DNA of 64,000 bases, taken from Eucommia ulmoides (taxonomy: Eukaryota > Streptophyta > Magnoliopsida > Garryales > Eucommiaceae). Shown one piece after another: positions 4,189-50,308 of this stretch. Location: the NCBI GenBank assembly GCA_016647705.1, contig CM028335.1, positions 41,667,026 to 41,731,025 on the forward strand. The letters run 5' to 3'. The notes below the pieces were generated by a model. It was not told the DNA's origin. It worked only from the letters and a program-made list of their open reading frames with translations, and searched no databases. The stretch's first letter is position 1, and every line of letters starts with the position of its first letter. Position numbers and translations under genes: made by a program.

Positions 4189-4373
4189 GACTGCCGCGGC
4201 GGTGGGATTTACTGTCGCGGAAGTGGGTAAGCCGGTTAGCTCACTACTGCTGCGGTGGGCCAAAATCTTAACTCTCTGATCTTTTACCGCTGTAGCAATG
4301 GGATTTTGTGCTGAAAAACCCCTTCTCTGCATTCTTACCGCCGCGGCGGTGGATTTCTCGCCACGGCGGTGGG
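4189..4373. repeat. Palindrome cluster in E1 5' LTR (CCGCCGCGGCGG type)
   Basis: At least six variants of a GC-rich dyad occur within 185 bp. The best is ACCGCCGCGGCGGT at 4337-4350, a perfect 14-nt palindrome. The E2 LTRs carry CCGCCTAGGCGG-type dyads at the aligned positions (45212-45430, 49896-50130). Confidence 0.8.
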
Positions 4374-4563
4374 TCTTGTGATCTTGAAACCATGTTTTTT
4401 CATCATTTCTTTACCGTTTTCCTACGTTTCACTCATTTGTCACTCATTTACGTCCCTACACCTGAATTACATAAAAACTAACGAAAACGAAATTAAATAT
4501 TACTAATTTACTCGAAAACTACCAAATTTGGTTTAGAAGTATATATGCATTTTACACCTATCA

Positions 4564-5743
4564 ACCAGCTATAGAATTAAGCGAGACTTCAGTAATTGGA
4601 GATAATTCGGTAGTTTCTAACATTGGCCCATCGTATTCTAGCTGCTCCTTTGAGTCCTCTAAATCATTTTTAGTTTCCTGGGTAACCAAAACACTCAATT
4701 CTTTATTTTTGAATTTATGCCCAGGTGACTATTTATCATCACACCGATAACATAGTTTTTTTTCTCGTTTCTTTTGCATTTCAGAATCCGTCAATCTTCG
4801 TACTTCACCATATGGCTTAGTTCCAAAAATATTTCCTAATATGGATGACCAGAATCTCCCTGGTGGAGCAGTGGGTCGGCCCTAGTTGCTAGGCTTGATG
4901 AATTGGATAAGCCGATTTCCTGCTGATGGGTTAACAAAACCCCTTGAAGAGCTAGGTTTGAAAGATTGCGCCAACATCAATTTTTCTTTTATCTTCTGGG
5001 CCAAGTCGATAGCCCGGCCCAAGTTAATGGGCTTCAAAATCCTCAATTTAGCCCAAATCTTAGGCTTCAACCCATTAATGAAATTTCCCAAAGCCATATC
5101 ATTCGATACATCCTCCAATAATACCGATAGTTCAAAGAACCTCTGGCGATACTCGCGAACATCACCGTCTGCTTCAAAGCCAACCACTACTCTTGGAGAG
5201 ACCTCATAATAGTTGAACAAAATTGTTTCAGTAGTATGATCTTCAAATTCTCCCACCACATGATGGATCAGCACTTGTTTTCCCACTGGTACCACAGTAA
5301 AGCATCACCTTCGAAGTCGATGACCGCCGCCTTGATCTTTATTTTGTTCGTGAACCGGTGGAGAGCAAAATAGTGCTCGACCTTAAAGATCCAACCATCG
5401 GGATTGGTGTTGTCAAACAACGGCATCTCCAACTTTTGAAATCAGAAATCAAAGCACAAATTAAGAAGATTGGTAGTCAAATCGGGAAGATGGGTAGTCG
5501 AATTAGAAAAATTAGGATTACCTTCTGTTGCTTTTGAATCTCCCACCAATGGTTTGAGCACCCTAGCTTCCATCACTTTTCCAGACGATAGAGATGAAAC
5601 ATGTCGAGCTGAATCTTCATGGAGCTAGCCTAGTCTCTTGTTTATATTTTGCATCTTCTCCTTCATCAATCCAATTTCCAGTTGAAATTCCTTTTGAGCC
5701 TCTTCCATTGCATCGATCGTTGAGCAATATTTTTGGCTACCAT
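4564..5743 (-). pseudogene. Ty3/gypsy gag (pseudogene), interrupted by E1
   Basis: The minus-strand frames encode a typical plant Ty3/gypsy Gag. A segment at about 5440-5300 contains LEMPLFDNTNPDGWIFKVEHY; 5295-4882 contains VREYRQRFFELS, FINGLKPKIWAKLR and RAIDLAQKIKEK. A degraded zinc knuckle follows near 4770-4720 (CYRCDD, stop, SPGHKFKN; last cysteine lost). The sequence ending EVSLNSIAG at 4564 is normally the Gag-protease linker, so E1 landed in the gag-pol frame and the protease, RT and integrase lie left of the window. Several stops and at least two frameshifts show it is dead. The likely start is the Met at 5743. Lineage (chromovirus-like) is inferred from the knuckle and linker. Confidence 0.85.
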
Positions 5744-5819
5744 CTACCCAAGTATCAGTTATCAATGACGAAGATGATGATGAACAGATCAATGATCACA
5801 CAGCAACACCCAGTTACGT

Positions 5820-5832
5820 GCTCTTGATACCA
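5820..5832 (-). other. Primer-binding site of gypsy-1 (initiator-Met tRNA type)
   Basis: The minus strand reads TGGTATCAAGAGC, i.e. the common TGGTATCAGAGC site with one extra A. It lies 2 nt from the LTR start at 5835 and upstream of gag. Confidence 0.75.
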
Positions 5833-5834
5833 AA

Positions 5835-6103
5835 TGATAAGCTCCAACTAGTAATTGTATAGATATGGGACGGGAATTTTTTTTATTACTGGAATTCGAA
5901 GTGGAATTACGTAAAAGCTCACCAACTATTTGAGAGACTTGAGAAACTCTCCTCAGGAGCAAAGCTCAAAATCACAAAGAAAATCACACATACCTCTATA
6001 TCTCTCCGCTTTTCACTCCCTTAAATCGATCTTTCCCCCCAATTCATTACTAATTATCTAACAGAAAATAAACAGAATCTAACAAACATTCCTACCCCCA
6101 ACA
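5835..6103 (-). repeat. 5' LTR of the gypsy-1 element (about 269 bp)
   Basis: It begins TGATAAGC on the plus strand next to the primer site and is taken to end at ...CCCCCAACA (minus: TGTTGGGGG). The partner LTR is outside the window, so the outer border is a best guess from the TG...CA rule. Confidence 0.55.
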
Positions 6104-7371
6104 AATTGACCGTGGATAATAGATTTTCCCCAGCCCTAACTGCCCGACTTACCCTTGTGCCTAGAATAGGTAAAACGAACCTAAGGCCTATCATCTTTTC
6201 ATAAGGTCATTCAGAGGGCTAGGAAGTGTTTTATGTTTGAACTCTTAGGTTCATGCATGTGTACTTCGTTGCCTGTGCATCTGGTAGCAGGAGGAGTTCT
6301 TATTGACTTCCCAAATAGATGTATGTTTGCACTTGCGCATCAGAAAAGAAATACTAGATAAGGCTGATGGGCAGGATTATTAAACATGTATTGATATCAA
6401 AGTTATGGTTATTATGTGATAACTCTCTCTCTCCCCCCTCTCTCCCTTCCCTTCTCCCTCTGTCTTTCTCTCTCTAAAGTAAATCATGACATCTAAATTG
6501 GTCTATTTTGTGTCCTTCCTATTGAAGCTTTGAAGTCGCTCATGGCCTAGGGCAGGGAAATATGTATAACAATGAGAATAATGCTCATGCTATTGTTTTA
6601 TTCTCACAAAAGTAACATTATCTACTCCTTCATGCTATTCTTCATGATTAACTTGGGCCTTATAACATAGATCACTTTATTCTAAATGTACCTATGTGCT
6701 CTTATATTCTAGTTTTTACATTTAGGAGTTGTGTGTGTGCAACATGCACTTTGCATGTGGGGTCATGTGAGCACCTATAAATGAAGCTATACGCTTTCTT
6801 GCATTTCATCAAGCACATTACATTCATAAATGATTTAGTTTTATTCACATGACATGTAAGTCAAAAAAAAAAATTGAAACATAAATTTAAATCTAGAATG
6901 TTGAATTTTAGCAAATGGAGTAACATATTTTGGATTTGAACAAAAACAGATTGATTAATGTGGGGTCTGCCTCGAAACATCCTATAACGTTAATATCAAA
7001 TACAAAGCTATTGGGATAGGCATTCAATAGTTCAATTCAATCATTTAAGGAACCAAATGTTATTTAATCAACAATTCAAGCCCAAAACAAGTCCACAACT
7101 GAGAATGAGATAGAAAATACCACCATGTCCACCAAAGTCATAATTCTCACTTAAGAAGATTCACTCTCATAATTCCTTTTTAATTAGTGTTTGTTTTTGC
7201 CAAGTTCAATATAAGGTTTTTTTAATTGCTTTTTTTTATTTCAATTATTTTTTTTTAATTAAGATACCATTATCAAAATTTGGCGCCAAAATTTGAAACT
7301 AAAATAATAACATTTAGTGGCAATTAGAATATATTAGCTGTAATTAAATAAATAATCAGTAAAAACATATC
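6104..7371. other. AT-rich intergenic DNA, no gene seen
   Basis: No long open frame and no recognised protein. A pyrimidine-rich CT tract lies at 6421-6477. The right part (7281-7371) probably belongs to the CACTA-like element ending at 7435. Confidence 0.6.
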
Positions 7372-7435
7372 ATTAGTGGTTATTTTTTAACTGCCGCTAA
7401 AATAATTGCCGGTAGAACCCATTTTTGTTGTAGTG
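7372..7435. mobile_element. CACTA-type transposon terminus
   Basis: The sequence ends CATTTTTGTTGTAGTG at 7435; its complement, CACTACAACAAAAATG, is the classic CACTA terminal repeat. Just inside are inverted subterminal motifs (CTGCCGCTAAAAT, TTGCCGGTAG, TTAGTGG), also typical. No matching CACTAC terminus was found to the left, so the element is truncated or its other end has decayed. No transposase is encoded. Confidence 0.6.
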
Positions 7436-8194
7436 ATGGAGAGATGAAGGAAAAAAGAAAAAAAAAACATTATTGACCCTTATATTTTGAATTAGTGTTA
7501 ACATAATTCTTATTAAATTTTTTAGAATGTATAAATGTCATTCAACAATAATTAAGTAATTTTGGTTGTGTTTTAGATAACTGTTAAACTGAAAAGAAAC
7601 CTTCACCGTTGCACTTAATTCTTAAGAATAAGTGGTGTAATTAGCATTTAAAAACAAAAAGAACGCGAATTGCAATTCGGTCTAACCACATGGGTTTATA
7701 AATTTTTTATTTTTTTTTGTAGGTGGGTAAATGTTTATATAATTTTATTTTATTTTTGTGTAGATGTTTATATAATTATATTTTGGATTTTGGATATATG
7801 AAAGTAATTTATTTATTTGGAGAGATGTTGGAAGATAAAAAAAGAGAAAATCTAATCTAATTTTATATACTAAAACGGATGCCTATATTTGTGAATGAAT
7901 GAGTGTTAAAGACATATATCTCTCTTTTGGCGAATTTAGAAAGAAAAAAAAATATTATTGCATAGTGGAAGTAATATATAATTTAATACATTATCTTTTC
8001 AATTATAATGACAATAAAATATACTATTGCATATAGTTGAATTAATAGAATTTAAATAGATATATTTAGACTATAATCTACTTAAATTATACTTTAATAA
8101 AATAAAAAAATTAAACTCTGTAAATAAAGAACTCAATATACTATACGGGTATAAAATAGTGAATTTAAAAAGATAACAGTTATAGAATATATGC
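7436..8194. other. AT-rich DNA, no gene seen
   Basis: Very AT-rich, with many short stop-closed frames and no recognisable motif up to the LINE target-site duplication. Confidence 0.6.
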
Positions 8195-8211
8195 ACATAA
8201 GGAAATGGTCT

Positions 8212-8991
8212 TCAGGATTGGATTGCTAAGCACATAAAGGGAGATCTATCAAACCCCCCTCTTTATATCTCTTCGTAGCCATTATTTGGGAGATTTGGAA
8301 AGATAGAAACAAAGAAGTTATTGAAGGGGACCACCCAAGATTATTTCTGGACCATTTCTAAAATCCTCCGCCTCTCGAGGGAGATGTTGAAAGTTTTCTA
8401 TCCAAACCAAATGCTTAACGGCATTTTTATATATCTTGGACCTAACTGGACTCATCCCCATGTAGGTATGTTTAAATTAAACACAGATGGCAGCGTGCTT
8501 GGTAACCCAGGAAAAGAAGGTATTGGTGGTCTTATCAGACTTATGGACGGATCATGGAAGATTGGTTTTTTTTTTTTGTCATTTTGAGTCCTACACTAGG
8601 TTGGAAGTAGAGATCAAAGGCGTCCATGCCGGTTTGTGCCTGGCGTTCACTAAGGGTTTTACCAGAGTGGTCGTTGAATCTGATTCCCTAGAAGCAGTCA
8701 ACCTTATTAAAGGTGACTGCTCGGACACTCACCTATTGAGGGGTTGGGTGATAGAGTACAAGCACATTATTAAGAATCATGACTTCGAGATTCAAGCCAC
8801 CAGCAGAGCCAACAAATGTTGCGCGAACTTCCTTGCTTGGATGGGGATGAACAGTAGATCTGAAATGCACTATCTGGAGGAACCTCTAAAGAGATTGAGA
8901 GACTTTTGATCACGTACATGAATTCGGAGGGTTTCAGTGATAGTTCTTAGCTTTTGTTTATTTTATTTCCCAACCCAAAAAAAACAAAAAA
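8212..8991 (+). mobile_element. 5'-truncated LINE with RNase H relic and target-site duplication
   Basis: The fragment encodes the C-terminal end of a plant LINE: a zf-RVT-like tail (8290-8340, frame reading IIWEIWKDRNKEV), then an RNase H domain with FKLNTDGSVLGNPGKEGIGG (8468-8530), VESDSLEAVNLIKGDC (8676-8725) and SRANKCCANFLAW near the end. RNase H of this type degrades the RNA strand during reverse transcription. The frame breaks at a T run near 8563-8577, so it is a pseudogene. It ends in an A-rich tail (8977-8992). It is flanked by 17-bp direct repeats, 8195-8211 and 8992-9008, differing at one base, which is the signature of target-primed insertion. Confidence 0.85.
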
Positions 8992-9177
8992 ACATATGGA
9001 AATGGTCTCATCCCTATCTAAACAAGTAAATATTGTATTAAGAGAAAACTGATGTAAGATGATTTTAAAAACATGTTTTGAAAAAATATCTCACCTGACC
9101 GTGACTTGCTAACTTAGCCACGAAGATGTTTATAATTTAGGTGATCGAAGACTCCGACTGCTTCCATAACCACAGCC

Positions 9178-9432
9178 ATGGACCCTAACGAGGTAACATT
9201 TCTTATTCGATTACCATTTCCTCGTTTTATTATTTCATTGATGCTAAAAATCTTTCATTTTCCAAACCATTTTAGTAGTCATTTGTGTTTGTATCATCAA
9301 CATTTGGTGGAAATTCGCATCAAGTTTCTTGTGGAAAAATATTTCCCTCCTGATGATGAGGAGTATTTCAGGATAAGAAACTCACGTGCAATGCACGTGA
9401 ACTTGAGAGCGGGGAGCGGAGAAGTCTTGTAG
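9178..9432 (+). other. Unassigned 84-codon frame, possible gene fragment
   Basis: The Met at 9178 follows a fair plant start context (GCCATGG). The five codons MDPNE are followed by GTAACA, and a TTTTAG lies near 9274, so a short first exon with an intron is imaginable. The C-terminal half contains VEKYFPPDDEEYF, which looks protein-like, but I recognise no family. It could be a captured gene fragment or chance. Confidence 0.15.
9382..9400. promoter_or_regulatory. Perfect 9-bp inverted repeat with two G-boxes
   Basis: TCACGTGCA, A, TGCACGTGA: two CACGTG cores facing each other around one base. CACGTG is the bZIP/bHLH core in plants. Hairpins like this also occur near Helitron ends, but no clear CTRR end fits here. 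Confidence 0.4.
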
Positions 9433-9660
9433 TCAGATCAGAGGATGACGACGGGAAGGAGAGGATAGCGACAACTCCTCCCTTTCTCTCCCTTCATCTT
9501 AGATCTGGGCTAAAACCCTAGCTAGACTCCCACCTCTAAAATTTGTTCATGAATCTCTACCATTTCTTCATCAATTCTTGATTTTTGAAATTTGTTCTGG
9601 ATTTGTTCATGAATTTTGTTCTTGATTTCTGCAATTTGTTAGGCGGTGAGCAGAGGAGGA

Positions 9661-9704
9661 GGGGGGTTGTTCGGGGGTAAGCAAAGTAGGGGTTTGGGGG
9701 GGGG
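9661..9704 (+). other. G-run cluster (possible G-quadruplex)
   Basis: Four G runs of 6, 5, 4 and 9 occur within 44 nt with loops of 6, 11 and 3 nt, in otherwise AT-rich DNA. This fits a quadruplex-forming pattern with one long loop. Confidence 0.5.
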
Positions 9705-9708
9705 TCGA

Positions 9709-21948: not shown

Positions 21949-22585
21949 AGAAACACCAAACAACCGTTACTTTCTCAAACTTCATCTAATTTCTAGCAAT
22001 AGGTCGGAAAAACAATGATTATGTCCTTAAACTTCATCTTAGTCTTTAGCTATAGGTTTGAAATCAGTAGGGGTAGTTCTGATCATGTCCTGAATTCCAG
22101 AGGTAACCTCAGACTATTTCCACTCGCTTATCTGCACTATGGAAGCCAGTCAAAGAACATTTTCCTCGAAATTGCATCCAAAATCATATCACAATATTTC
22201 AAGAATAAAATCAAAAACATCTATTGATAGGCCAAGTTGGTGCAAGTTATCAAGCCACAACATAGGTATTTTCTCCACGACCGAGCTTGACTCTCATAAT
22301 TTTCCTAGCCAGTGGTCTTTAGATCAAATAGCTTGTTACCGTACTCTCACCCTTTTAAGAAAAGGTTTTATTGTGCCCTCATATTTTTATGTTTTTGGAC
22401 TTCAATTGTATTTTGCTGTGTAAGGTATTCTTCTTCTGTATTGGTTATAATATTTGGATTCATTGGAAGCATATTTATTCAGATCTTTCCTTGTTCTCTG
22501 GCTATATTTTTTTTCACCTCTTATGTTACCCTTACCTACTAATGTCAAATCACCAAATGTTAAGCTCTATTATTCTGCTTTGCTG

Positions 22586-25500
22586 GTGGCAGGGCAAAGC
22601 CCTACTTACACATTGGATGAAACACTCGTTGTTGTGGGATTTGGCACATTTAAGCTTCTTGTGCTTGGTTACGCTGGACTGGGTTTAATTGCAGAGGCAA
22701 TGGAAGTGATGATTATTTCCTTTGTAGGGTCATCTGTCAAGTCTGAGTGGGGACTTTCCTCTAGCGAAGAGAACCTCATAACAACTATGGTTTTTGCTGG
22801 CATGATCGTAGGAGCCTATTCATGGGGTCTAATATCCGATAACTGTGGAAGAAAGCATGGTTTTCTCTATGCATCTAGTTTTATATGCTCTCTCTCTCTC
22901 TCCCTACCTCCCGTCCCCTCTCTCTAAAAAATTGTTTTACTATTTGGCTGCAAGTAAAATTACAGCTTTCTGTTCATTCACAAACTATTATTTTTGTTCT
23001 TAGTGGTGCACCTATTTAGTACTAACTTATTCAGCGACTGTCATTCTATGAAGCTCATTTTTATTTTTGCGTTATGTTGGGTCTCAGTTGGTATTCACAC
23101 GATACTCATATGACAGTAACTGCTGGGTATGACAGAAAATTAAGGAAACACAGAAACCTCCATATATTGTTCGTAAATGGTTCGTTGAAGAAAATTATTT
23201 TATAATCATAGCTTACACAATGCGAAGAAGACTTCTTTCATTTTTTTATACCATCTTATTCCTGCCACATATTCATTCTTGATTCTTTGTGTTATTGTAT
23301 ATATTGCCCTTGTGATCTTCTTTTCCAGAGTGTTTTTTCGTGCACCAAACCTTTCAAGTTTGCTATTTAAGCACAACTGCAAAGTGCACATGATTGTATC
23401 ACCTTGCTAATCGGCAAAGTGATTCTTTTCCATGTACATTAATTTAATGGTAGGGTGGAAAATTGATGGAAAAAAAAAAAAAAAAAAAACTTATTTGGTA
23501 TGGATGGAAAATGGGAAGAAAAAGAAAATGGAAATAAAAATGCACAATTTTCTGAGCAATTTATTTTCCACACAAATTTGAAAGGAAAGTGAAGGAAAGC
23601 GAGGAAGAATGAGTAAAATTACAATTATACCCTTGATAATAGATTTTTAATTTATTTTTGTAATATATGATAGTAAAATAGTAAATTACATTAAAGTAAA
23701 TTATTTTCCCTCCTTTCATTTTTCTTTCCTAACCGAACAACACTAGGTAAAATGATTTTTCTTTTACAAATGATAAAAAAAATAAAAAAATAAAAAAATA
23801 AATTCTTTTCCTTTTCCTTTCCATTCTTCCAATCAGACAGCCTCAAAAATGCAATTTCTTATATACTGTTTATGCTAATTTAGAGTCAAGCTCTTGCTTT
23901 GCTTACGGATTTTTAGCTTAAAATCACAATAGTTTCCCCCATTTTCATTTGGCATCACCAGGAAGGGTCTTCTAAGTATAGTTGTAGTGACAACAAGAGC
24001 TGGTTTTCTAAGTGTTTTTTCCCTAAATTATATATCATTGATAATTCTCCGTTGTTTTGTGGGCATTGGTTTGGGTGGTAGGCCTGTGTACTCGTCTTGG
24101 TTTCTAGAGTTTGTTCCCATGCCAAACCGAGGCACTTGGATGGTTATATTTTCTACTTTCTGGACAATTGGAACAATCCTTGAGGCTGCACTTGCATAGG
24201 TATATCATCTCAATTTCTCTGTAGTACCTAATTGTGGCTAAGTTTCTTCATTTCTTCAATTATTAACATGAGTTTCTTTAAGAATGCAAGTTAATGCAAT
24301 GCTTTAGCTTTATATTAGTGTTAAAATATTACTTGCTTCTGTAACACTTGAATTCTTGTGGACATTTGTTTTTTATTTAACAAAGGACGTCTTTTTCCGC
24401 ACACTGTGTAATAAAATGTTGATTAATGTTACCACTCAACTATACCTTTATTTTCTTTTTCTTGCCCTATCTATTTGTTCTTGTGTAAAAAAAAAATCAA
24501 TAATAAGAAAAACACAAATGACACGTGTTTCATTAGCTAAGGGATCTGCCTCAAAAGCAAATCATAGTTAACATGCTATACAATTGCCAGTTAAGAAATT
24601 CCATATTTGATGATGTTTCAATTTTAATGACAAAGCTTCTCTGATACAACAAATTTTTCTTCCAGTATCTTTGAAACGATACTATTTAGTTTAGGCTTTG
24701 CCAGATACCCTATAAATTAAGGGGCTTTACATTTGTCAGTGTTTCTCATTAAAAATTATTAAAGCTTACAAGAACTTGAAAGAAAACGGAAGGTTAAATT
24801 TAGAATAGGTCAGAAAATGTAATTCCAATCATTTTCTTGTCCTCTTTCTATTTAAACGATTTTAAATATGCGGTAATTGGTAAACCTTCTAGTGCTTACT
24901 TCTTTACATCTAGTGGCTTGTTTATTTTTCCCCATTGTTTTGTCATTGTAACATGTAATAAGATTCATCCCATACCATTTTTTCTATATGGTCACACTCT
25001 TTGTTGAGAGGTGTGCAGGAGTTCTATTTATTTTAAGAACTGACAATGTGTGTTGCTGTTGGAAACCATAGGAAAGAATTTGCTAATGCTCAAAACTCAA
25101 AATTGACGTATTTGTTTTGTAGATCATGATGCCATATTTGGGTTAGAGGTGGTTACTTGCACTATCTTCAGTACCATCTTTTGCAGCCTTTCTCTTATAC
25201 AGTCTTACATTGGAGTCCTCAAGATATCTTTGTATGAAGGGAAGAATAAATTATGCATATAATGTTCTGAACAAAATATCAGAAGTTAACCGAACAAAAC
25301 TTCCTATTGGAATGCTTGTTTTTTATCAAGATGTTGAGATGGAAGAACTGGCACTATGGGAGGATACGCAATTACTCTCTCCTCAAAGAAACAAAATGAT
25401 GGTTTCTAAAATGGGCTTTTCATTAGTGCATGTGCTTTTTTCATGGAAACTATTAAAACCCACTCTTCTCCTATGGGTATTGTTTTTCGGAAATGCATTT

Positions 25501-25956
25501 TCATACTATGGGATCATACTGCTAACCCCGAAACTAAGCAATAGTGAAAGCAAATGCAGCTCTGATATATTGCATTCGAAAAATCCCCAAGGCGATACCA
25601 GCAGCCACCGAGATGTATTTATCACTAGTTTTGCAGGTAATGATGATGCTTTCACATTTTACCTTTTTCTTTTTCCTTTCGTTTTTTGTGGAAAATTGTG
25701 AAGTATGGTTTGTATATATGTTACTGATAATGTAAAGGTTGTGTACTTTTCAGAACTTCCTAGGCTTACTTAGTCGGCAGTTGTAGTGGACCGAATTGGT
25801 CGAAATTTTTTAATGGCAGTTATGTTTGTGTTTAGTTGTATTTTTCTGATGCCGTTGGTTTCCCATCGGCTAGAGAATTTCACAACAGTTTTATTATTTG
25901 GAGCCCATATACGCATCATTGGAACTTTCACAATTGCTGGCATATATTGTCCTGAG
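22586..25956 (+). pseudogene. Organic cation/nicotinate transporter-like MFS gene (OCT7/NiaP type), broken
   Basis: Four exons of an MFS transporter are visible. Exon 1 (22586 to about 22855): YTLDETLVVVGFG, then GLIAEAMEVMIISFVG, VFAGMIVGAYSWG and SDNCGRKHG (MFS signature loop). Exon 2 (23962-24199): LIILRCFVGIGLGGRPVYSS, FVPMPNRGTWMV. Exon 3 (25123-25636): RWLLALSSVPSFAAFL, ESSRYL, central loop, GNAFSYYGIILL. Exon 4 (25754-25956): VVVDRIGRNF, LLFGAHIRIIGTFT. Order and spacing match plant OCT7-type carriers, which move organic cations or nicotinate across membranes. Stops: TAG 24197 and TAG 25144, both where the family has Trp, and TAG 25771. Exon 1's donor is unrecognisable, the start reads GTG (VAGQSPTYTLDE), and the C-terminal exons are missing: a retroelement begins at 26107. 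Exons 2-4 keep AG/GT borders. Confidence 0.85.
23480..23836. mobile_element. Possible foldback MITE in transporter intron 1
   Basis: The left part (GGATGGAAAATGGGAAG) and right part (CTTTTCCTTTTCCTTTCCATTC) are loosely complementary and the interior is AT-rich, with A runs at both sides. A MITE is likely but no clean target duplication could be fixed. Confidence 0.3.
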
Positions 25957-35200: not shown

Positions 35201-36459
35201 ACTTATGTTCCATGTTAGGGTCCCTCCTTAAATGGATCCTCCACATTTGTTTCTTCAAAATTCTGATTGCATATTAATATAATTCATTCACATTTTTGTT
35301 TTCAGAAAAATTTAATAAAAATTACGAAATTAAGGTTATTTTCATATGCATGACAATATGACATGTCTCTTAACGTTAATATATGAAAATAAAGTAGAGA
35401 TTAAAAAATATTTTTTGATTTTTGATTTTTTGTTTTCTCTATCAAATTCATCTCTTTCTACCAAGAGTAATAGTATGCCCAAGAGAGCTGTCGAGGGATT
35501 GTTTTTTTGCGATTTGCACTTCTCTAGTGATATTTTTTTTTGGTTGGGGTTGAACCATGCCAAATAAAGGTATTTATGCAACAAATTAATTTGGAATCAA
35601 AAAACAAAATCCAGGCATAGTTTTTCTAGCAATTCTTTATTATTTTTTTTCTGTTCATTTTTTTTTCCCTATTTCACCTGTATTGAAAGTACACATTCTC
35701 ATAATACAACAATAATATGTAACAAACACAAATTAATATAAATGAAAAACGAATAATATTACAATTTTAACACAAAATAAAATATTACAATTGTTGAATC
35801 CAAGGTTTTTGTAGACACCACATTTTGTCCCGCTCATTTAGTATTAGATCTAAAGTGCAAGTTCAGATAAACTTTAGACAGAGGTTTAAAAGGAGCGAAT
35901 TTCTACCTTAGATTACATTGGATACTAAAAAAGAAAAAAAAAAAAAAAAAGCATAAAACGGTCAATTTGATTAAATTCAGTATAAGTTTCGAGTCAATCT
36001 CAAAATTCCTAAAGTTAAAGGGGACTAAAATGACATTATTAAGCATTGATTTTCATATAATCACTTTTAATATGAATAAAAATTAGTTACTACCCTTCAA
36101 CTTACAAAAATCTCACCAATTATTATTGTTTTCCGTTTTGACCCCTGAAACTTTTATTATCACCAGTTTCATCTTTTTGACACCAAACATATGTCTTTAA
36201 TTTTGTTTAAAGTACTAATATCAAGAAATCAATCCAAAAGCCTTGATTAAGTCAAAGAATCTACCATGACAATCTAGTTACTCAAAGTGACTAATACTTA
36301 AGACATGGTTCAAAACCAACCAAACCGAATGTCATCATGACAAACATTCAAAGCTCATCACATCAAGATCTAATCAAGCATTAAATGCCTCATTAATGAA
36401 CATTTAATGAGGATATATTTTAAAGATCTTTCTTGCAAAATATCTTGGATTGAAACTTA

Positions 36460-37552
36460 GGCCCCATTTGGTTAGTGTTTCCATTCCAACCTAACCCAAC
36501 TCAACCCAAAAATGTTGGCATTAATTTTTTGGGAACGCATTTGGTAAAACAAAACTCAATCCAATCCAACCCAAAAAATGATAACTGATTCACAAAATTC
36601 TAATAAAATGGGGAACAAAAAAAAGGTATTTTTTTTTTGTGCCCAAAAAACTCATCCCATGCTGAGGACACGTTGGTCATTATCAAAGTTGTTTAGTGAG
36701 TCCACGTTCAAGTTTTGTTAGCCTCGTTTTCATTTTCATTTCTTTATCATTTTTCATCTCTTTTCCTTATCATTTGTCGTTCGCTCCATTGTTCGTCGAT
36801 CTCTTTCGTCGTTGCCGTTCTTTTCCATCTTCGCCATCTACCTCCTCCTCGCCATCGTCTTCGCTGTCCTCACCATTGTCTTCGCAGAACTCATCGTCGT
36901 CTCCTTTCTCGTACTTTCCATCGAACAGATTGAACATATCAAAATCATTTCTCCTCGCCATTGTTTATGATTTTGATTTCGTTACTAAAGTAACTAAATC
37001 GATTTAGTGTTCGATTTTGATTTCATTACTGAAATCGATCACGAAATCGATTTCGATTTTTGATTTTCAATTTCATTGTTCAAATCGATTTAGGGTTCGA
37101 TTTCATTGCTTAATATGAGGTATCATTATCTATTTATATTTTCATTTCGATTTTCAATTTCATCATGAAATTGATTTTCGATTTCGAAATCGAAATCAAT
37201 TTTTGGTTTGGTTCTTGGTTTTGGCTTAGGGTTCGTTCTTAAATTTGGTTTAGGGTTGGTTTTTTATTTGGGGGTTTGGTTGAATTTCATGAAATCAATT
37301 ATAGGGTTGGTACTTGATTTGGAGATTTTGGTTGAATTTGGGGGTCTGGTTGAATCAATTCTAGGATTGGTTCATGAAATCAATTCTAGGATAATATTGT
37401 TGCCAAACATGATTCTATTTCGAGTACAAAAAAAAAAATTGTCGTTACCAAACGCAATTTTGTTTCTACTAGGAAACTGAATTCTTAACTCAACTCAACC
37501 CAACCCATCTCAGTTGGGTTGAGAAAAGTGAGAACACTAACAAAACGCAACC
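36460..37552. mobile_element. Harbinger-type MITE 1 (1093 bp)
   Basis: Left end GGCCCCATTTGGTTAGTGTT, right end complement GGTTGCGTTTTGTTAGTGTT; flanking TTA on both sides, the PIF/Harbinger target. The interior contains a low-complexity block of GAAATCGATTTCGAT phrases (37005-37200) and a Ser-rich pseudo-frame. No transposase. Confidence 0.85.
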
Positions 37553-38968
37553 TTAGTTACTTGAAAGTAACTAACGGTTACAAAATTAACTGAACTAGTT
37601 TTCCATCACATTGTAGACACCGCATTTTGTCTCGCTTACTTAATTTTTCAAAGTATCAAATCTAAAGTGTAAATTTGAATAAACTTTAAATTGAGGTTTA
37701 AAGAGAATGAATTTCTGCCTTAGATTACATTGGATACTACAAAAAAAAAAATGCCAATTTGTTTTAATTTGGTATAAGTAAAAGTTTTGGGTCAATCTCA
37801 AAATTCCTAAAGTTAAGAGGGAATAAAATGATATTATTAGAGGTTTATTTTCATGAAATCACTTTTAGTATGAATAAAAATTAGTTCCTACCCTTTAACT
37901 TAAGAAAATTTCATCAATTACCTTTACTTCCCATTTTGACCCCTGAAACTTTTACTATCACCAGTTTCATCTTTTTGACACAAAAAACACGTCTTTAATT
38001 TTGTTTAAAGTAATAATATCAAGAAATCAAGACAAAATCCTTGATCAAGCCGAAAGCCTTGATTAAGCTAAAGAATCTACCATGACAATCTAGTTATTCA
38101 AAGTGACTAATACTTAAGACATGGTTCAAAACTAACTAAACCGAATGTCATCATGAAAAGCATTCAAAGTGCATCACATCAAGATCTAATCAAGCATTAA
38201 ATGCCTCATTAATGAACATTTAATGAGGATATCTTTTGAAAATCTTTCTAGCAAAATATCTTGGATCGAAACTTAGTTACTTGAATGTAACTAACGGTTA
38301 CAAAACTAACCGAACCAGTTTCCCATCACATTATACACACCGCATTTTGTCCCGCTTACTTAATTTTTTAAAGTATCAGGTCTAACGTGCAAATTCGGAT
38401 AAACTTTAAATTGAGGTTTAAAGAGAATGAATTTCCGCATTAGATTACATTGAATACGACAAAAAAAAAATGTTAATTTGTTTGAATTTGATATAAGTAA
38501 AAGTTTCGGGTCAACCTCGAAATTCCTAAAGTTAAGGGGAAATAAAATGCCATTATTAGAGGTTTATTTTCATGAAATCACTTTTAGTATGAATAAAAAT
38601 TAGTTACTATCCTTTAACTTAACGAAATTTCACCAATTACCTTTACTTCCCATTTTGACCCCTAAAACTTTTATTATCACCAGTTTCATCTTTTTGACAC
38701 CAAAAATACTTTTTAAATTTTTGTTTAAAGTACTAATCTTCAAGAAATCATGCCAAAATCCTTGATTAAACCAAAGAATCTACCATGATAATCTAGTTAC
38801 TCAAAATAACTAATGCTTAAAGACATGGTTCAAAACCAACCAAAACGAATGTCATCATGACAAGCATTCAAGACTCATCATATCAATGTATAATCATGCA
38901 TTAAATGCCTCATTAATGATGAGATCTTTTGAAGATCTTTCTATCAAAATATCTTAGATGGAAACTTA

Positions 38969-39469
38969 GGCCCCGTTTGGTTAGTGTTCCCAACCCAACC
39001 CAACCCAACCCAAAAAATAGGAATTGATTCTCAAAATCCTAAAGAAATTAGAAACAAAAAAAAAAAGTTGTTTCTTTTTGTGCCCAAAAAACTCAACTCA
39101 AAGTTCTCAACTTCCGTCTTCATTTGTCAGCTGACCACCACCACCCGCCGCCGGCCACCGTCCTGCGACTATCGCCGACCGCCACCGCTGTCGGCCAGCG
39201 ACCGTCTGCGCCTCCGGCGGCTGGCTGCCGCCTGCCGGCGACCATCATCGCCAAAACAAAAAAAAAAAAAAAAAAAAAATTCTCAAAAAAAAAATAAATA
39301 GTTTTAGGATAAAATCGTTACCAAACACGATTATGTTCTCAGTACAAAACAAAAATTGTCGTTACCAAACGCAATTTTGTTCTCAAAAAGAAACAAAATT
39401 CTCAATCCAACCTAACCCAACCCATCCCAGTTGGGTTGAGAAAGGTGGGAACACTAACCAAACGCCACC
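38969..39469. mobile_element. Harbinger-type MITE 2 (501 bp) with GC-rich interior
   Basis: Ends GGCCCCGTTTGGTTAGTGTT and complement GGTGGCGTTTGGTTAGTGTT; flanks TTA left and CTA right. It shares the CCAAACGCAATTTTG and AACCCAACCCA blocks with MITE 1 but carries a different interior, GC-rich at 39125-39250 (CCGCCGCCGGCC, GCCTCCGGCGGC), followed by an A run. Confidence 0.85.
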
Positions 39470-40088
39470 CTAGTTACTTGAAAGTAATTAACTGTTACAA
39501 AACTAACGAATCAGTTTCCCATTACATCATTCATTAAATTACCAATCAAATCAAGGTCACATTGAGCATTTAATGATTAAAACAACCATTAAAGAATCCA
39601 TTCAATGGATGCATTTAATGAGGAAGATATTTTCACCAAAATATCTTAAAAGAAACTTAGTTACTTCAAAGTAACTATAGTTACAAGGTTAATCAGATCA
39701 ATTCTCATCCCATGAAGGCATTAAACGCCTATCAAATCATTGTCTTTAATGCATTAATGACATTTAGAGACTACATTAAATGAACTCATTAATAGCATTT
39801 CATGAAGGAAATATATTTTCAAGGGAAGTAACTAGATTACCTTGAGTAACTAGTACTTAGCAAGCAAACCGAACTAGAAAATATTACATCAAGCATTAAA
39901 TGATCATTTAATGATCTATGTGTAAGCCATGATAAGTAATGATTTCTTAGAAAATCTTAGTAAATATTCGTTATGTGGATCTAACCCTAGTAGTGAAAGA
40001 CATCAAAGGGTCCTACCTAGACAAAACACAGCATAAGGAGCAGGCTAGGTATGAATGTGCATTAGGGAATGCACAGGCTACCCAAGCC

Positions 40089-42953: not shown

Positions 42954-42956
<3 letters not shown>

Positions 42957-43014: not shown

Positions 43015-44035
43015 TGGGCATATCATCTCTTTTTTTTGGTGGTTTGATTTTGGACTTTGACACAGCCCCTTGCTCTTTTCTCCCATTCGGCCTCCATGAA
43101 GTAGAGGAGCTCGGATTTTGAAATGATCGAGTTCATTTCCTTTTAAGTTGTCGTTCCACCTTTATGGCCATGTGAACCATGTCTTCCAACTCCACATAAT
43201 GTCGTAATTCCACCACGTTGGCAATGTCCCGATTTAGTCCATTCAAGAACCTGGCCATGGTAGCTTCTCTATCTTTCTCGACATTAGCCCGGATCATAGC
43301 GATCTCCATTTCCTTGTAGTAATAATCCACGCTCCGATAGCCTTGAGTAAAACTTTGTAACTTCTAGTACAAATCCCTATAGTAGTGACTAGGGACAAAC
43401 CTCCTACTCATTATGGCTTTCATTTCTGCCCACGTATCGATAGGACTCTCATGGTTTCTTCTTATGTTCATTACAAGTTGATCCCACCATATTATAGCAT
43501 AATCAACAAATTCAATTACAGCGAGTTTTACCCTTTTATGCTCGGAGTAGTTGTGGCACTCAAAGATCAATTTCACCTTCTTCTCCCACTCTAAGTACGC
43601 TTCAGGGTCGTTCTTCCCTTGGAACAATGGAATCTTTATCTTGATGCTTCCCAAGTTATTATCGATCTGTTCCCCATACCTATCTCCTATATTCCCATAT
43701 CCATGCCCAAATATGCCCAAACTTGCATTAGAGGCGCAATCTTCTTTCTCAGAGTCATCCCAATCATCAACTTCATATCCATACTGAGGCAGATTCCTCT
43801 CTCGTCATTGTATATTAGGAGCTTTAGGTGGTTTCCCCCTTTGTGAACTAGACTCAACTTTGTCTAGTCGCTCATGCATTTCATCAAATCGTGGGTTCAA
43901 TCGTTCAAACTTTTGCTCCAAGACTTCGTAGAAAACTTTGACGTCCATGACGTCTATCCTTTTTGGTGCTTCATTAGACGAGCCTTTGTTTGTTTCTTGA
44001 GATATGCTTAATAACCTGCAAAATAGAGTTAGCAA
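43015..44035 (-). pseudogene. Ty3/gypsy gag (gypsy-2), truncated pseudogene
   Basis: The minus frames give a typical plant gypsy Gag. Coiled-coil N-terminus FYEVLEQKFERLNPRFDEMH (44035-43805); capsid (Retrotrans_gag) [34 protein letters not shown] and [13 protein letters not shown] (43720-43364); then YKEMEIAMIRANVEKDREAT, FLNGLNRDIANVVELRHYV and VERQLKRK (43330-43133), Lys-rich tail to 43015. The linker between capsid pieces is shifted, with stops at 43800 and 43350. Protease, RT and integrase are missing at the left, where the sequence breaks near 42955-43015. Its LTR and primer site lie on the far side of E2 at 50853-51720. Confidence 0.85.
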
Positions 44036-44118
44036 ACCTCACAAACACTCCCTCACTTGTTTCCCTCAAGATTGATGGCACTCGCGCTCCTGTTTCACTT
44101 AAATTCGGCTTTTACCCT

Positions 44119-45616
44119 TGGTAGGTGCGCGAAATGTGCATGCCTACTTACGCTCACAAGTATACGAGGTCTAAAGTTTTAATATAGTGGATCTTTAAGA
44201 TTAGATATCGTTCCCACAGAGAAGAGTGTGAATAATTAAATTGAATACCGCAATTGACGTAGTCTCATGTTATCCTGAAGACGAAAGACATGAATTGAAA
44301 TTAAACTAAGCTAAACTAAAATTAGTGGGTTAATTCTAACTAATTTGATTAATTAGGGATTGATTTCGTTCACTGAATACACGTTTGATTTCGTTTAGTT
44401 AACAATAACAGAGTTTAGGTATCCGATAATCTTGGTTCGTAAACTCCTCCGCCACTTCCTCCGAGTGTAAGACGAGGGAATATGTGACTTCGTGTCCACG
44501 AAGAGGTCCCCCTCAATGCCTTAACGACTCTAGTCCACGTGATTCTTGACCCAACGTCATCGATTGCACACTAACTAACACCCTCCCGGGTCGTTAGGTC
44601 GTAACAATGTGTTTAACCTAATCCGAATCCAGGGTTACCTATCCCGAGTGTCAAACTCTAGATTCTCAAATACAACCCTAATACCATTACAAGCATATTA
44701 AGATCGTCATCAAATGATAAACACAATCGGACTTAAAAGCAACAACCGTTAAAGAAACGTATATTAAACCAAACGAGTATTTACACAACTACACATTTCC
44801 CTAACTAATCTCTAATTTACACTAACATGTTCTTAGCCAATACAACATTTAATCTAGAGGAGATCATCATTATCAACAATAAACATTTAATACAAAGATG
44901 AAAACAAGGGAAGAAAAGCCAAATCTCAAAGTGGAGCAATCCACTTTCGCCAAAGAACAATCCTCCCGAGCTTCCTCTTCTCCGTTGATGAACATCCTCT
45001 TCTAGCTCTTCAAGGGTTGGCCAAGAACACCTCCTAAACTAATATAATCTAACTAAGGTGGAAGAGAGCTTTCAAGAACAACTAAGCCCTCTCCCACGTC
45101 TAAGGTAAGGGTCTCCACATTTTGAGGTTTGGAGGAGAAAAGGAGTTAAATAGGTAAGGTTTGGAAATATCTTCAAAATATATGAAAATAGATATTTTGG
45201 TGCAAAGTGTCACCACCTAAGCGGTGGTTCACCGCTTAGGTGGTGGCTTTAAGTCGGTTAAGCTTTTGTCGGTAACTTCGCCTAGGCAGTAGTTTTTCCG
45301 CCTAGGTGGTGGCTGCTAGCACAACATTCTGATCTTTTCTCGCCTAGGCGGTGGTTTTCTCTCCTAGGCGGTGGTTCAACCCTTCAGCACTTCCAACATT
45401 CTGCCTCTTTTCCGCCTAGGCGGTGGTCTTCATTCATCGAAACCCTGTTTTGCACATTTTGTTCACCGTTTCTCCACCATTTTCATTTGTTTATCGCCCT
45501 TTAACGTCATTTCCCTGTTCTACACTAAAACACACTAAAACACAATTAAATATAACTAAAACGCTTGAAAACTAACAAATTCGGTTTAGAAATAGATAGG
45601 TTTTTCACACCTATCA
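44119..45616 (-). repeat. E2 3' LTR
   Basis: Plus-strand left LTR. Next to it on the internal side, the minus strand reads AGTTTGGGGGTAT, the polypurine-type tract expected before a 3' LTR. It contains the palindrome cluster 45212-45430. Confidence 0.95.
45212..45244. repeat. 15-bp hairpin in E2 LTR
   Basis: ACCACCTAAGCGGTG, loop GTT, CACCGCTTAGGTGGT: perfect arms. A further five CCGCCTAGGCGG-type dyads follow to 45430, including a perfect CCGCCTAGGCGG at 45412-45423. Confidence 0.95.
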
Positions 45617-47775
45617 ATACCCCCAAACTTAGAATTTTGCGAGTCCTCGAGCAAAACACTAGCACTAAACTAAACTAACTAACAAACTAACCAACTAAAA
45701 ACGAAAAATTAAACTAACACGAAAGAAGTATATGCATATAAATATAAAGTTCAATCGAAATGACCAATTTGTTCCTCCCTCAACAGCCCTAAATCAGATC
45801 AAGTTCGGGAAGTAACCCACACCAAGTGGTGTTCTAGAATTTCAACGATCAATATTAATAAAAACCATTCTAGATCCATTTGAAGTGTGTGTGTGAGAAC
45901 TCAAATGTATAACTAGTCAAATACTGGATTCGATTATTCAATCGTTAAGCTCGTAACTTAAATTGTTAAAGAATTCAGGAAAACCATACTCATGATTGGA
46001 GTCTACTATCCACTAATGTAGGCTCGGATATTCACAGAGATCAATAGGGCTTGGTTTGGCCTTGGAGAACAACCACGGGTATCACTCGGAATAAAAATAG
46101 CAAATCGGTTTAATTGATCGATACCCGAGGTAAAATCGATTGTCGCTATCCTCTCTCATGACCCCACATTTAAAGTACAACTCTAAATAAGAAATGAAAA
46201 TCCATGTATTCACTTGTCGAAAGAGAAGAAAATGAAAACTATATTCATGTTTAATTTTTTTTTTTAATAACATATTCCTAAATTAATTCGAATTATTACA
46301 ATTTTAGGAGAGTGCAAAAAGAAGTTAGAGAAACACACCCCCAAACTTATTCGAATTTATAAAATTTTAGGAATATGTAAAAAGAAATGATAGAAACACA
46401 CCCCCAAACTTATTTCAAGAGCGTGGAAAAAGAAATACAAAAGTGACAAGTGAATACACTAATACCGAATCAATAAAAATTTATCAAAAACCCGACCGCT
46501 CACTTGATTTCACTCAATTTTGAAAATTAGGCTTAGCGACATTGGGTTAGGAAAAATTTAATTGAAAGGAGTATTTGAACGTTTTCAGAATTGATTACGT
46601 TATCAGCTTCGATAGGGGAAATAAGGAATTAACATTTTCAGGTTAGCTACAACAGTTCAAGAGAAAAATTGACGTCCTAAATCACGTCTCCGGAATTACC
46701 TCAACTAGGATTCCGCCTCAAGTTTTCCCCAAATCAAGTTCTAGTTTTCTCATTTTCTATCATGAGCTTAATCTTGAATAATCAACGTCTAATCTTTCAG
46801 ATAATTATACATTGAGTTCAAATGTCGTGCGATTTTTGGATAGAGATATTTTTTACCGAATTGACATGTTAAGCACACAAAACACACAAGGAATGTATTA
46901 CCCCCGACCTCAATATGCAATTAGGGGATAATTCTCATCATCGGGTCTTAACCCAAATGAACTCACATCTAAACATGCAAACACAACTTTATACATACAC
47001 AAATCTAAACTAATTCTAATACTAACATACATAATTTAATCTAACACTAAACATGCAAAAACAAAAATTAAACTACACTAAAATAAAAATTTAAAAACTA
47101 AAATATTTAAAATAATAAAATACATACTCAAAATAATGGTTCATCCTTTTCTACAAAAAAAAAAAAATCAAAATGGATGAACATCCACTAAACTAATCAT
47201 CCACTCCATACCAAAACATGCTTGAACAAAAGAAGTGTTCCTCAGTCAACGAACCCAATAGACATGTAGCATTAATGCATACAAAATGGGTTAAACACAT
47301 ACCTAGGGAATAAGACTTATTCCCTACTGTTCACCTGACGGTAAATTCCTCTCCACCACTATCACGTCGGAATGGAAATTGTGGCGGTTGCAAAAATTAC
47401 GGCGGCAATGCTGAAGTGGTCGCACATGAACCTGTGGATTTGATCTAGCGCGCACACTAATCACAATGTTTCAACAAAAATGAACAATGTAGCATGCAAT
47501 TTTGTTTCACACAATTTAACAATCCATAGAAACTAAGTGATCACCAAAAATCAAACCAAAATCCCAAAGTGATAAAGAAAATTGCGAAAATGGGGTTAAA
47601 AATTGATTTGTGGTGGATGATTCGGGGTGGACATCACAAATTTTAGTAACAGAAGGATGATTTTTGAGTATTGGAACGGTTTGGAAGTGAGGCTTTAGAG
47701 AGAAGGTGGAGGTTTTGGGGGAAGGAACCTTGTAATTTTCATTTTTTAACGAACGGGCTCTTTTAACTGCAGAAG

Positions 47776-48012
47776 GTCCACCGCTTAAGCGGTGGAGCCT
47801 TTTTCTTTAAAATCTAACCTTCTGACGAAATTCTGCCTAGGCAGTGGTTTTTCTGCCTAAGCGAAATTACACCAGTGTGAAAACATTTTATTCTGCTGTT
47901 AATCTGTCTAGGTGGTGATTTTTCTGCCTAAGTGGTGGAGCGTATTTTGAAAATTTGGTGCATCCTGTATTTTTACCGCCTAAGCGGTGGTTCACCGCTT
48001 AGGCGGTGGGCC
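47776..48012. repeat. Palindrome cluster in E2 interior
   Basis: TCCACCGCTTAAGCGGTGGA at 47777-47796 is a perfect 20-nt palindrome. 47975-48007 is a hairpin, ACCGCCTAAGCGGTG, GTT, CACCGCTTAGGCGGT, with perfect 15-bp arms. Three more imperfect CTGCCTAGGCAG-like units lie between. Confidence 0.95.
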
Positions 48013-48576
48013 TGCAGCTCCCACTTTCATATTTTTCTCAAATTTTCAAAATACAGCTCCACCCCGTACGTTTTCACTTCGCTTGTTCAACGTTTTTAAA
48101 CTTAAAATACTTCCCCAAGCGTCCATACTCCTAAATTCACTTCCGAACACATTCTGAAGCCATACCGGCTTCCAAAAAGAATAAATAATCAAATAAATAG
48201 TAACAAAAATCAAGTAATTTGATACCCTGAGTTTTATTTCAAAAAAAAATAGTGCTTGAGTTACTGTCCCCAGCTAGACTATCGTGTCACTAAGTATTTT
48301 TCACCAAAATTCCCCATAGACAAGGAATTTGGGTTCAAATGCTCAGTCGGATCAAAATCATAGCTTGAAGTCGGCTTCTCCTCTTAGTCCTTATCATTTG
48401 CAATAAGTTCAATCTCGGGATTGGGAATTAAGAATTCCAATCTTCTTCATCTGTTCTCACACCGCTTGATCTCATTAACACAATGAAACAAAAATTTAAA
48501 TTAAAAACAAAACAAAAATAAATGTCAGGATTAACACTCGACTACTTAGTCGCAATATCAACTTAAAATTTACACT

Positions 48577-48772
48577 AATCCCACGTCAACAGTGCCAAAA
48601 ACATGGTGTGTTGACGGGACTAGAATACGCTATATTTGGTTCTCCTATTTAAAACTTAAGTTCTGAGTCGTTACCGCGTTTCTTTTGAAATATTCAATTA
48701 AAATTCAAACTAATCCCCGATAACGGCTCCAAAAACTTGGTAGACGTTGACAGGAATGGAATTTGACAACAA
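48577..48772 (-). repeat. Two extra primer-site-like units in E2
   Basis: Besides the real site, units at 48577-48610 (CAACAGTGCCAAAAACATGGTG) are echoed at 48712-48742 (ATAACGGCTCCAAAAACTTGG); each includes the 3' part of the tRNA-Asp match, the A-rich spacer and the LTR start TGGT. They are progressively less like the tRNA with distance from the LTR. Confidence 0.75.
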
Positions 48773-48794
48773 CCAATCCTCGGCAACGGCGCCA
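48773..48794 (-). other. Primer-binding site of E2 (tRNA-Asp type)
   Basis: The minus strand reads TGGCGCCGTTGCCGAGGAT, matching the complement of plant tRNA-Asp 3' end (CCCCGGCAACGGCGCCA) with one change. It is 6 nt from the LTR. Confidence 0.9.
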
Positions 48795-48800
48795 AAAACT

Positions 48801-50308
48801 TGGTAGGTGCGCGAAATATGCACGCCTACTTACGCTCGCAAGTATACGAGATCTAAAGTTTTAATATAGTGGATCTTTAAGATCGAATATTGTTCTCACA
48901 GAGAAGAGTGTGAATAATTGAATTGAATACCGCAATTGACGTAGTCTCATGTTATCCTGACGACGAAAGACATAAATTGAAATTAAACAAAGCTAAACTA
49001 CAATTAGTGGGTTAATTCTAACTAAGTTGATTAATTAGGGATTGATTTCGTTCACTTAATACACGTTTGATTTCGTTTAGTTAACAATAACGGAGTTTAG
49101 GTATCTAACAATCTTGGATCATAAACTCCTCCGCCACCTCTTCCGAGTGTAAGATGAGGGAATACGAGACTTCGTGCCGATGAAGAGGTCCCCCGCGATG
49201 TCTTAACGACTCTAGGCCACGTGAGTCTTCACCCAATGTCATCGATTGCACACTAACTAATGCCCTCCCTAGTCGTTAGGTCGTAACGATGTGTTTACCC
49301 TAGTCCGAATCCTAGGTTACCTCTCCCGAGTGTCAAACCCTAGATTCTCAAATAAAACCCTAATACCATTACAAGCATATTAAGATCATCATCAAATGAT
49401 AAACACAATCGGACTTAAAAGCAACAACCGTTAAAGAAACGTATATTAAAGCAAACAAGTATTTACACAACTACACATTTCCCTAACTAATCTCTAATTT
49501 ACACTAACATGTTCTTAGCCAATACAACATTTAATCTAGAGGAGATCATCATTATCAACAATAAACATTTAATACAAAGATGAAAACAAGGGAAGAAAAG
49601 CCAAATCGCAAAGTGAAGTAGTCCACTTTCGCCAAAGAACAATCCTCCCGAGCTTCCTCTTCTCCGTTGATGAACATCCTCTTCTAGCTCTTCAAGGGTT
49701 AGCCAAGAACACCTCCTAAACTAATCTAATCTAACTAAGGTTAAAGAGAGCTCTCAAGAACAATCAAGCCCTCTCCTACGTCTAAGGTAAGGGTCTCCAC
49801 GTTTTGAGGTTTGGGGGAAAAAAGGGGTTAAATAGGTAAGGTTTGGAAATATCTTCAAAATATATGAAAACAGATATTTTGGTGCAGAGTGTCACTGCCT
49901 AAGCAGTGGTTCACCGCTTAGGCGGTGGCTTTAAGTCGGTTAAGCTTCTGTCAGTAACTTCGCCTAGGCGGTGGTTTTTCTGCCTAGGCAGTGGCTGCTA
50001 GCACAACATTCTGACCTTTTCTAGCCTAGGCGGTGGTTTTCTCTCCTAGGCGGTGGTTCAGCCCTTCAGCACTTCCAACATTCTGCCTCTTTTCCGCTTA
50101 GGCGGTAAAACTTCGGCCTAGGCGGTGGTCTTCATTCACTAAAACCCTATTTTGCACATTTTGTTCACCGTTTCTCCACCGTTTTCGCTTGTTTAACGCC
50201 CTTTAACGTCCCTTCCCTATTCTACACTAAAACACAATTAAATATAACCAAAATGCTTGAAAACTAACAAATTTGGTTTAGAAATAGATAGGTTTTTCAC
50301 ACCTATCA
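48801..50308 (-). repeat. E2 5' LTR
   Basis: Right-hand LTR beside the primer site. A TATA-like CCTATTTAAC on the minus strand (49827-49836) is a promoter candidate. Palindrome cluster at 49896-50130; its first hairpin (ACTGCCTAAGCAGTG / CACCGCTTAGGCGGT) has two arm mismatches. Confidence 0.9.

Follow-up and report, generated by a model that had tools for sequence, protein, structure and literature searches.

Palindrome-like boxes with fixed arms and a variable two-base centre are arrayed in non-coding LTR retrotransposons of Eucommia ulmoides

The RM boxes of Sireviruses, reported as Sirevirus-specific in the parts of Bousios et al. (2010; PMC2829016) that concern them, are the closest described counterpart of the repeats analyzed in this study. 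According to the same parts of that paper, many palindromic CGG-CCG boxes lie in the U3 (unique 3') half of the long terminal repeat (LTR), upstream of the TATA box, a second cluster lies inside the element, and the box sequence is family-specific. These features recur in a 64,000-nucleotide stretch of Eucommia ulmoides DNA (GenBank assembly GCA_016647705.1, contig CM028335.1, positions 41,667,026 to 41,731,025; hereafter the window), which carries two related LTR retrotransposons, E1 and E2, both on the minus strand. The GC-rich palindromes of E1 and E2 were found to be copies of a single box, CACCGCC-NN-GGCGGTG(G), which forms arrays in the U3 and at one place inside each element. In the examined loci the arms of the box were fixed, the centre was variable, and no covariation of the arms was observed. 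We regard it as probable, though well short of assured, that these are cis-regulatory box arrays for a dimeric host factor in a non-coding LTR retrotransposon family, with the centre homogenised in each lineage.

The palindromes of the preliminary description were all found in place: CCGCCGCGGCGG (4338-4349) in an E1 LTR, CCGCCTAGGCGG (45412-45423) in an E2 LTR and CCGCTTAAGCGG (47781-47792) in the E2 interior. Its clusters, which both elements have in the interior as well as in the LTRs, were likewise present, all of them on the minus strand. The 12-nt boxes of E1 start at 4191, 4212, 4247, 4287, 4338 and 4358 in the U3 of the right LTR (4191-4369; centres GC, AC or GT) and, according to the box listing, at 23, 66 and 117 in the left LTR (23-128) and at 2432, 2452, 2504, 2556 and 2576 in the interior (2432-2587). 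Those of E2, the centre of which is TA throughout, start at 45213, 45232, 45278, 45298, 45340, 45360 and 45412 in the U3 of the left LTR (45213-45423), at 47781, 47833, 47853, 47904, 47924, 47976 and 47995 in the interior (47781-48006), and at 49895, 49914, 49960, 49980, 50022, 50042, 50094 and 50114 in the U3 of the right LTR (49895-50125). The left-LTR boxes of E2 lie 193-403 nt from the U3 edge. Five perfect 12-nt palindromes with at least 8 G/C are present in the window (4338, 45412, 47781, 47833 and 49980); all belong to E1 or E2, and they are the best preserved of the 36 boxes listed in the two elements. The word CCGCNNNNGCGG occurs 7 times in the window, where 0.03 occurrences are expected, and 7 was reached in none of 100 shuffles. 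In the host genome (947 Mb in 391 contigs), 4473 exact 16-nt boxes were found, as against 0 for the reversed control pattern; base composition predicts about 0.1-0.3. A directional flank, TG(G), stands on the 3' side of the plus strand. The boxes are a single repeated word with a directional flank rather than independent palindromes.

The preliminary description had also placed the E1 and E2 palindromes at aligned LTR positions with different central bases. The central two bases do differ. The alignment, however, is not clean, the left LTR of E2 having one box fewer there: the E2 box at 45412 aligns opposite the E1 box at 4358 (TCGCCACGGCGG, non-palindromic), and the other LTR of E2 has CCGCTTAGGCGG at 50094, which is not a perfect palindrome either.

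To relate the box to its genomic relatives, the best 40 of 447-2685 first-look candidates were considered for each of four queries, so that the loci are closest relatives. This gave 110 host loci: 30 for the E2 U3, 30 for the E1 interior, 30 for the E1 U3, and 20 for the E2 interior, in which 20 of the 40 places were taken and to which the window copy was added. The window's own copies (L001, L016, L031 and L061) are included in the counts. Before counting, a box was dropped if more than 5 of its 10 arm positions were mismatched, and a site if it had under 5 rows. The resulting 704 boxes at 28 aligned sites were reduced to 690 by removal of 14 overlapping rows, 12 of which were at one out-of-register site of the E1 interior; the modal-letter test and the spacing list still include these 14 rows. 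Since the loci are related, counts per locus are not independent trials. As the null for arm covariation, the 3' letters were redealt within each site.

Complementary arm pairs numbered 2397 of 3450, and 2399.4 were expected from the within-site shuffle (p 0.60); compensatory double changes in the arms numbered 67, with 67.6 expected. No excess of arm complementarity was found when the four box sets were tested separately (p 0.43-0.74), and the larger set before removal of the overlaps agreed (2427 of 3520, 2429.0 expected). The modal letters of the 28 sites, one of which is partly out of register, gave no sign of covariation either, 119 of 140 pairs being complementary with 120.8 expected, and the modal arms were near CCGCC/GGCGG irrespective of the centre. 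Perfect 12-nt palindromes accounted for 77 of the 690 boxes; the other 613 were broken. On the genome-wide scale, with the 4473 boxes with unchanged arms as the reference, pair 3-10 was changed on one side in 2933 boxes and on both in 551 (odds ratio 1.15, 95% interval 1.02-1.29), and pair 2-11 on one side in 2581 and on both in 352 (odds ratio 0.95, 0.83-1.08). C>T or G>A made up 93% of the arm changes in the E2 U3, 93% in the E2 interior, 84% in the E1 U3 and 75% in the E1 interior. The copies are mostly old insertions, and the covariation test therefore largely measures decay.

These results bear directly on the view of the preliminary description that the dyad, not the exact bases, is under constraint, so that symmetry is selected while the bases drift through paired substitutions. 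E1 and E2 do differ by a complementary central pair, and boxes with TA or GC centres make up 3130 of the 4473 exact boxes, as such selection would have it. The substitutions in the arms, however, were uncorrelated: among the genome relatives (690 boxes at 28 sites), paired substitutions in excess of the shuffled controls were not found in the arms, and the palindromes were usually broken. On the shuffle test, the modal letters and the genome-wide odds ratios, that of pair 2-11 being close to one, we reject compensatory evolution of the arms. The prevalence of C>T and G>A among the arm changes, and the 424 boxes with a TC/GA centre between otherwise perfect arms, also speak against selected symmetry. 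It is refuted for the arms in the examined sample, and as a general explanation we hold it to be highly improbable.

The centre behaves as a spacer. In E2, TA was found in 208 of 210 U3 boxes and in 111 of 134 internal boxes, with TG in 21 of the other 23. The centres of the E1 U3 are GC together with AC, GT and AT, which are likely deamination products of GC. Inside E1, the centre varies by site, as three example sites show (TC in 20 of 28, TA in 10 of 17 and GC in 22 of 30 boxes). Among the 4473 exact genomic boxes, TA occurs in 2106, GC in 1024, TC/GA in 424 and other centres in 919. The asymmetric centre keeps one orientation: the 690 oriented boxes contain 48 TC and 1 GA. Of the boxes, 75-95% retain the 3' TG but 14-72% its mirror CA, and TG is ahead in all four sets; the right arm is better preserved than the left in three of the four. 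Since the TC centre keeps its orientation and the 3' TG outlasts the mirror CA, the box is directional. TA and GC happen to be self-complementary, and the E1 and E2 palindromes therefore resembled a compensated pair. When the 36 window boxes are pooled, 27 have complementary centres, with 16.2 expected; this is because E2 is TA throughout, which repeats a single family difference at many boxes. With the TA centre, two of the four CpGs of each E2 box are gone, and methylation may perhaps be lowered. There is a slim chance that the two-base centre serves as an address.

We next consider how the arrays change. When E1 was compared with E2 by BLAST, the flanks aligned, but most of the U3 array and most of the internal array did not. 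In a forced global alignment, the identity was 78% and 72% at the arrays, with many gaps, as against 78-84% in neighbouring blocks. Box number and spacing differ between copies. With most of each array unaligned and the flanks aligned, units seem to be gained and lost from the arrays over time, the box being kept. One internal pair of E2 (47975-48009) is 94% identical to the E2 LTR pair over 35 nt, in unrelated surroundings. If the LTR and the interior exchanged sequence, for instance through template switching on one RNA, the boxes of a lineage would come to share one centre, and the exchange among repeats suggested in the preliminary description thus lives on as the explanation of the concerted centres.

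Exchange alone might even suffice. If the box were a GC-rich tandem repeat of no function, spread by slippage and template switching and kept alike by exchange, variable box number and spacing, an E2 centre homogenised alike in the LTR and the interior, and clusters mostly without BLAST alignment between aligned flanks would all be expected. Such a repeat would not, however, account for the persistence of the box at U3 and internal places in families differing by 20-30%, despite CpG decay, nor for arms that are kept while the centre varies, nor for the constant distance from box to TATA box in many E1-type loci described below. We consider the absence of function distinctly unlikely.

The position of the U3 array is that of an upstream activating region. 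In E1, the TATA box TATAAATA on the element strand (4131-4138, minus), identified from the sequence and the E1-type loci, lies downstream of the box array. Of 30 E1-type loci, 22 have TATA[A/T]A no more than 130 bp from the U3 array on its element-downstream side (3.7 expected), and in 16 the distance to the first box is exactly 58 bp. Two AAAATATCT words stand between the E1 boxes and the TATA box (4152-4170, minus), and E2 has one in each LTR (45190-45198 and 49872-49880, minus). Within 140 bp of the U3 array on the element-downstream side, 28 of 30 E1-type loci (1.7 expected) and 24 of 30 E2-type loci (1.3 expected) have this word on either strand, which makes 52 of 60 U3 loci of both families. 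We take AAAATATCT to be identical to the plant evening element, which would make circadian or cold control possible. CACCG resembles DREB, ERF and ABI4 sites, which would make these factors candidates.

Most neighbouring boxes stand 19-21 bp apart, and the larger steps between groups are about 42-53 bp, or 71-72 bp in the E2 interior; the commonest spacings (19-21, 42-43, 51-53 and, in the E2 interior, 71-72 bp) are near whole helical turns. In the E1 interior, the overlapping out-of-register rows account in part for the odd spacings (3, 17, 18 and 49 bp). The two facing half-sites, the near-helical spacing and the position of the arrays suggest binding by a dimeric protein, a mechanism that the preliminary description had offered among others and that is still the best one. 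In the proposed mechanism, each box consists of two facing half-sites, fixed in sequence and separated by a spacer of two bases, and would be bound by a dimer of a DNA-binding protein that is most likely a transcription factor of the host. The bound boxes would drive transcription from the downstream TATA box in U3. Tandem duplication and template switching would spread the centre sequence through the boxes of a lineage and homogenise it, resulting in TA in E2, GC in the E1 LTRs, and GC, TC or TA inside E1. Binding, activation and the mode of homogenisation are deduced here from the sequence.

Several facts weigh against the cis-regulatory reading. E2 has in its U3 only a TATA variant, CTATTTAA (45146-45153 in the left LTR and 49828-49835 in the right LTR, minus), and TATA[A/T]A was found in 3 of 30 E2-type loci, with 2.2 expected. 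At the corresponding distance from the E1 internal arrays, a TATA box was found in 0 of 30 loci (2.5 expected). A TATA-driven promoter beside the E1 internal array is therefore rejected, and the internal arrays are therefore not explained as promoters. The 44-46 bp spacings, to which 30 of the E2 U3 spacings belong, are off the helical phase; moreover, there are few distinct spacing classes, and tandem duplication could set them. Complementary changes of the centre within sites numbered 26, with 17.0 expected (p 0.004), and the pair just outside the 12-mer was complementary in 389 of 690 boxes, with 380.1 expected (p 0.004), mainly in the E1 interior. These two excesses would also favour selection of symmetry, as would the odds ratio of pair 3-10 and a nominal enrichment of pair 2-11 in the E2 boxes of the window (p 0.04). 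Double deamination of GC to AT in old copies, or subfamilies sharing a site, can be the source of the centre excess. Double changes of the outside pair showed no excess (2, with 3.1 expected). Shared ancestry or uneven methylation would be enough to produce the excess at pair 3-10, although there may be a weak real effect.

Finally, the arrays fold unusually well as RNA. This points to another interpretation, in which single boxes or neighbouring pairs form hairpins in the genomic RNA for packaging, dimerisation, export or small-RNA production. In comparison with shuffles, the box regions of the window gave folding z values of -6.8 for the E2 U3, -5.8 for the E1 U3 and -7.5 for the E2 interior. 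The mean values over 12 of the 30 loci in each set were -7.4 for the E2 U3, -3.3 for the E1 U3 and -2.6 for the E1 interior, with 0.1, 0.0 and -1.1 for the controls. The first E2 pair (45213 and 45232) forms a near-perfect inverted repeat, one box being the reverse complement of the other. In addition, small RNAs are drawn to Sirevirus palindromes, as stated in the relevant part of PMC10760457. Folding is, however, unavoidable for arrays of a nearly self-complementary word, and in the E1 interior of the window it hardly exceeded that of shuffles (z -1.66, with 12 of 200 shuffles folding as well). Box-to-box covariation was absent from eight of nine pairs of neighbouring sites; the ninth gave p 0.02, which is not notable among nine tests. 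The single orientation of the asymmetric centre and the place of the E1-family U3 arrays directly before the TATA box also speak against hairpins. We consider RNA hairpins unlikely, though less so than the other alternatives, and retain the cis-regulatory array as the best explanation.

The architecture of the two elements is as follows. E2 is flanked by the target-site duplication ACCCT (44114-44118 and 50309-50313). On the minus strand, its left LTR (the 3' LTR in element sense, 44119-45616), with TGGTAG...CTATCA ends, is 91.6% identical to the right LTR (the 5' LTR, 48801-50308, placed by comparison of the LTR pair), and the interior of about 3.2 kb (45617-48800) is without a stop-to-stop open reading frame (ORF) of at least 110 aa. 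E1, also on the minus strand, consists of a left LTR truncated by the window start (1-323), an interior (324-3168) and a right LTR (3169-4563), the LTRs being placed by alignment. Its LTR pieces aligned by BLAST are 72-81% identical to those of E2, and its interior is 70.5-71.4% identical in two pieces. The ORF scan of the E1 and E2 interiors found none of 110 aa or more, and no env or other gene. A match to the primer-binding site in the expected range was found in 19 of 60 LTR loci scanned, and the non-coding E1/E2 leader is present in 18 of these 19; in the other (L015) the match lies at another offset. The non-coding layout is common to the relatives of E1 and E2.

The primer-binding site of E2, TGGCGCCGTTGCCGAGGA, is of the tRNA-Asp type and lies 6 nt from the LTR (48777-48794, minus). 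E2 has a second similar copy at 48714-48731 and, by eye, a third at 48580-48597. Two or three primer-site matches were seen in L007, L016 (the window's own copy), L017, L018, L020 and L030, and a single match in each of the seven E1-type loci with a primer site. As to the surroundings, a Ty3-type gag fragment (Pfam Retrotrans_gag; 43364-43804, minus) adjoins E2, and an ORF beside E1 (4882-5304, minus) had no Pfam match at 0.001. ORFs at 22451-25701 (plus) resemble exons of a major facilitator transporter, with MFS_1 and Sugar_tr matches below the Pfam cut-offs. Direct-repeat families with units of 162-268 nt, 81-93% alike, occupy 35944-39507, outside E1 and E2. The GC content of the window is about 25-44% per kilobase, and Copia and Ty3-type fragments are present.

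The primer site allows a first comparison with known systems. The word GCGCCGTTGCCGGGGA is, we assume, the tRNA-Asp complement, and other lineages may use the same word. E2 differs from it, as given in the pertinent part of PMC5904367, at 1 of 16 bases. In the section of PMC1142308 with which the site was compared, the Ty3-gypsy elements Calypso and Diaspora of the Athila lineage have a tRNA-Asp-type site a few bases inside the LTR; a start 5 bp from the LTR is taken to mark the Athila, Calypso and Diaspora lineage. Unlike E1 and E2, which are non-coding, Diaspora has a gag-pol ORF according to the same section of PMC1142308. E1 and E2 also resemble large retrotransposon derivatives (LARDs) in their long LTRs, non-coding interior of several kilobases and many dispersed copies. 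LARDs are defined by LTRs, a primer site, a target-site duplication and a non-coding interior as a family property, and E2 has all four. We know of no LARD with such box arrays. A literature search for the word CCTAGGCGG gave no retrotransposon title among the matches listed, and one on palindromic motifs in gypsy LTR promoters found nothing.

Another parallel is the target motifs of VANC in VANDAL21, which, in the portion of Hosaka et al. (2017; PMC5735166) that treats them, are short non-coding repeats co-evolving by tandem-repeat turnover, with one motif letter specific to the subfamily (C-type or T-type). VANDALs encode the binder VANC, whereas E1 and E2 encode nothing; an autonomous partner of E1 and E2 did not turn up, and no search was aimed at one.

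The arrays are like the RM boxes of Sireviruses in their number and position, in the palindromic CGG-CCG design, in having an internal cluster and in being family-specific in sequence. E2 carries 7 and 8 boxes in its LTRs and 7 inside, where at least 8 CGG-CCG dyads per element are taken to mark a Sirevirus, and its LTR boxes occupy the upper half, ahead of the TATA variant mentioned above. The internal cluster is present, but an env gene downstream of it is not, since the E1 and E2 interiors contain no ORF of at least 110 aa. The primer site of Sireviruses is that of initiator-Met, and that of E2 matches the tRNA-Asp type. By these two testable features, the lack of a gene and the tRNA-Asp-type primer site, E1 and E2 are not Sireviruses. 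In the parts of PMC2829016 cited above, moreover, RM boxes belong to Copia elements, the internal cluster goes with an env gene, and the box word is different. The architecture is thus of an already described kind, and what is new is its occurrence in a non-coding family with a tRNA-Asp-type primer site. U3 boxes upstream of a TATA box together with an internal cluster, outside Sireviruses, suggest convergent or shared use of such arrays by unrelated plant retrotransposons. With thousands of boxes, fixed arms and three main centres, the family is also a natural experiment that lends itself to measuring how the centre affects binding, methylation and expression.

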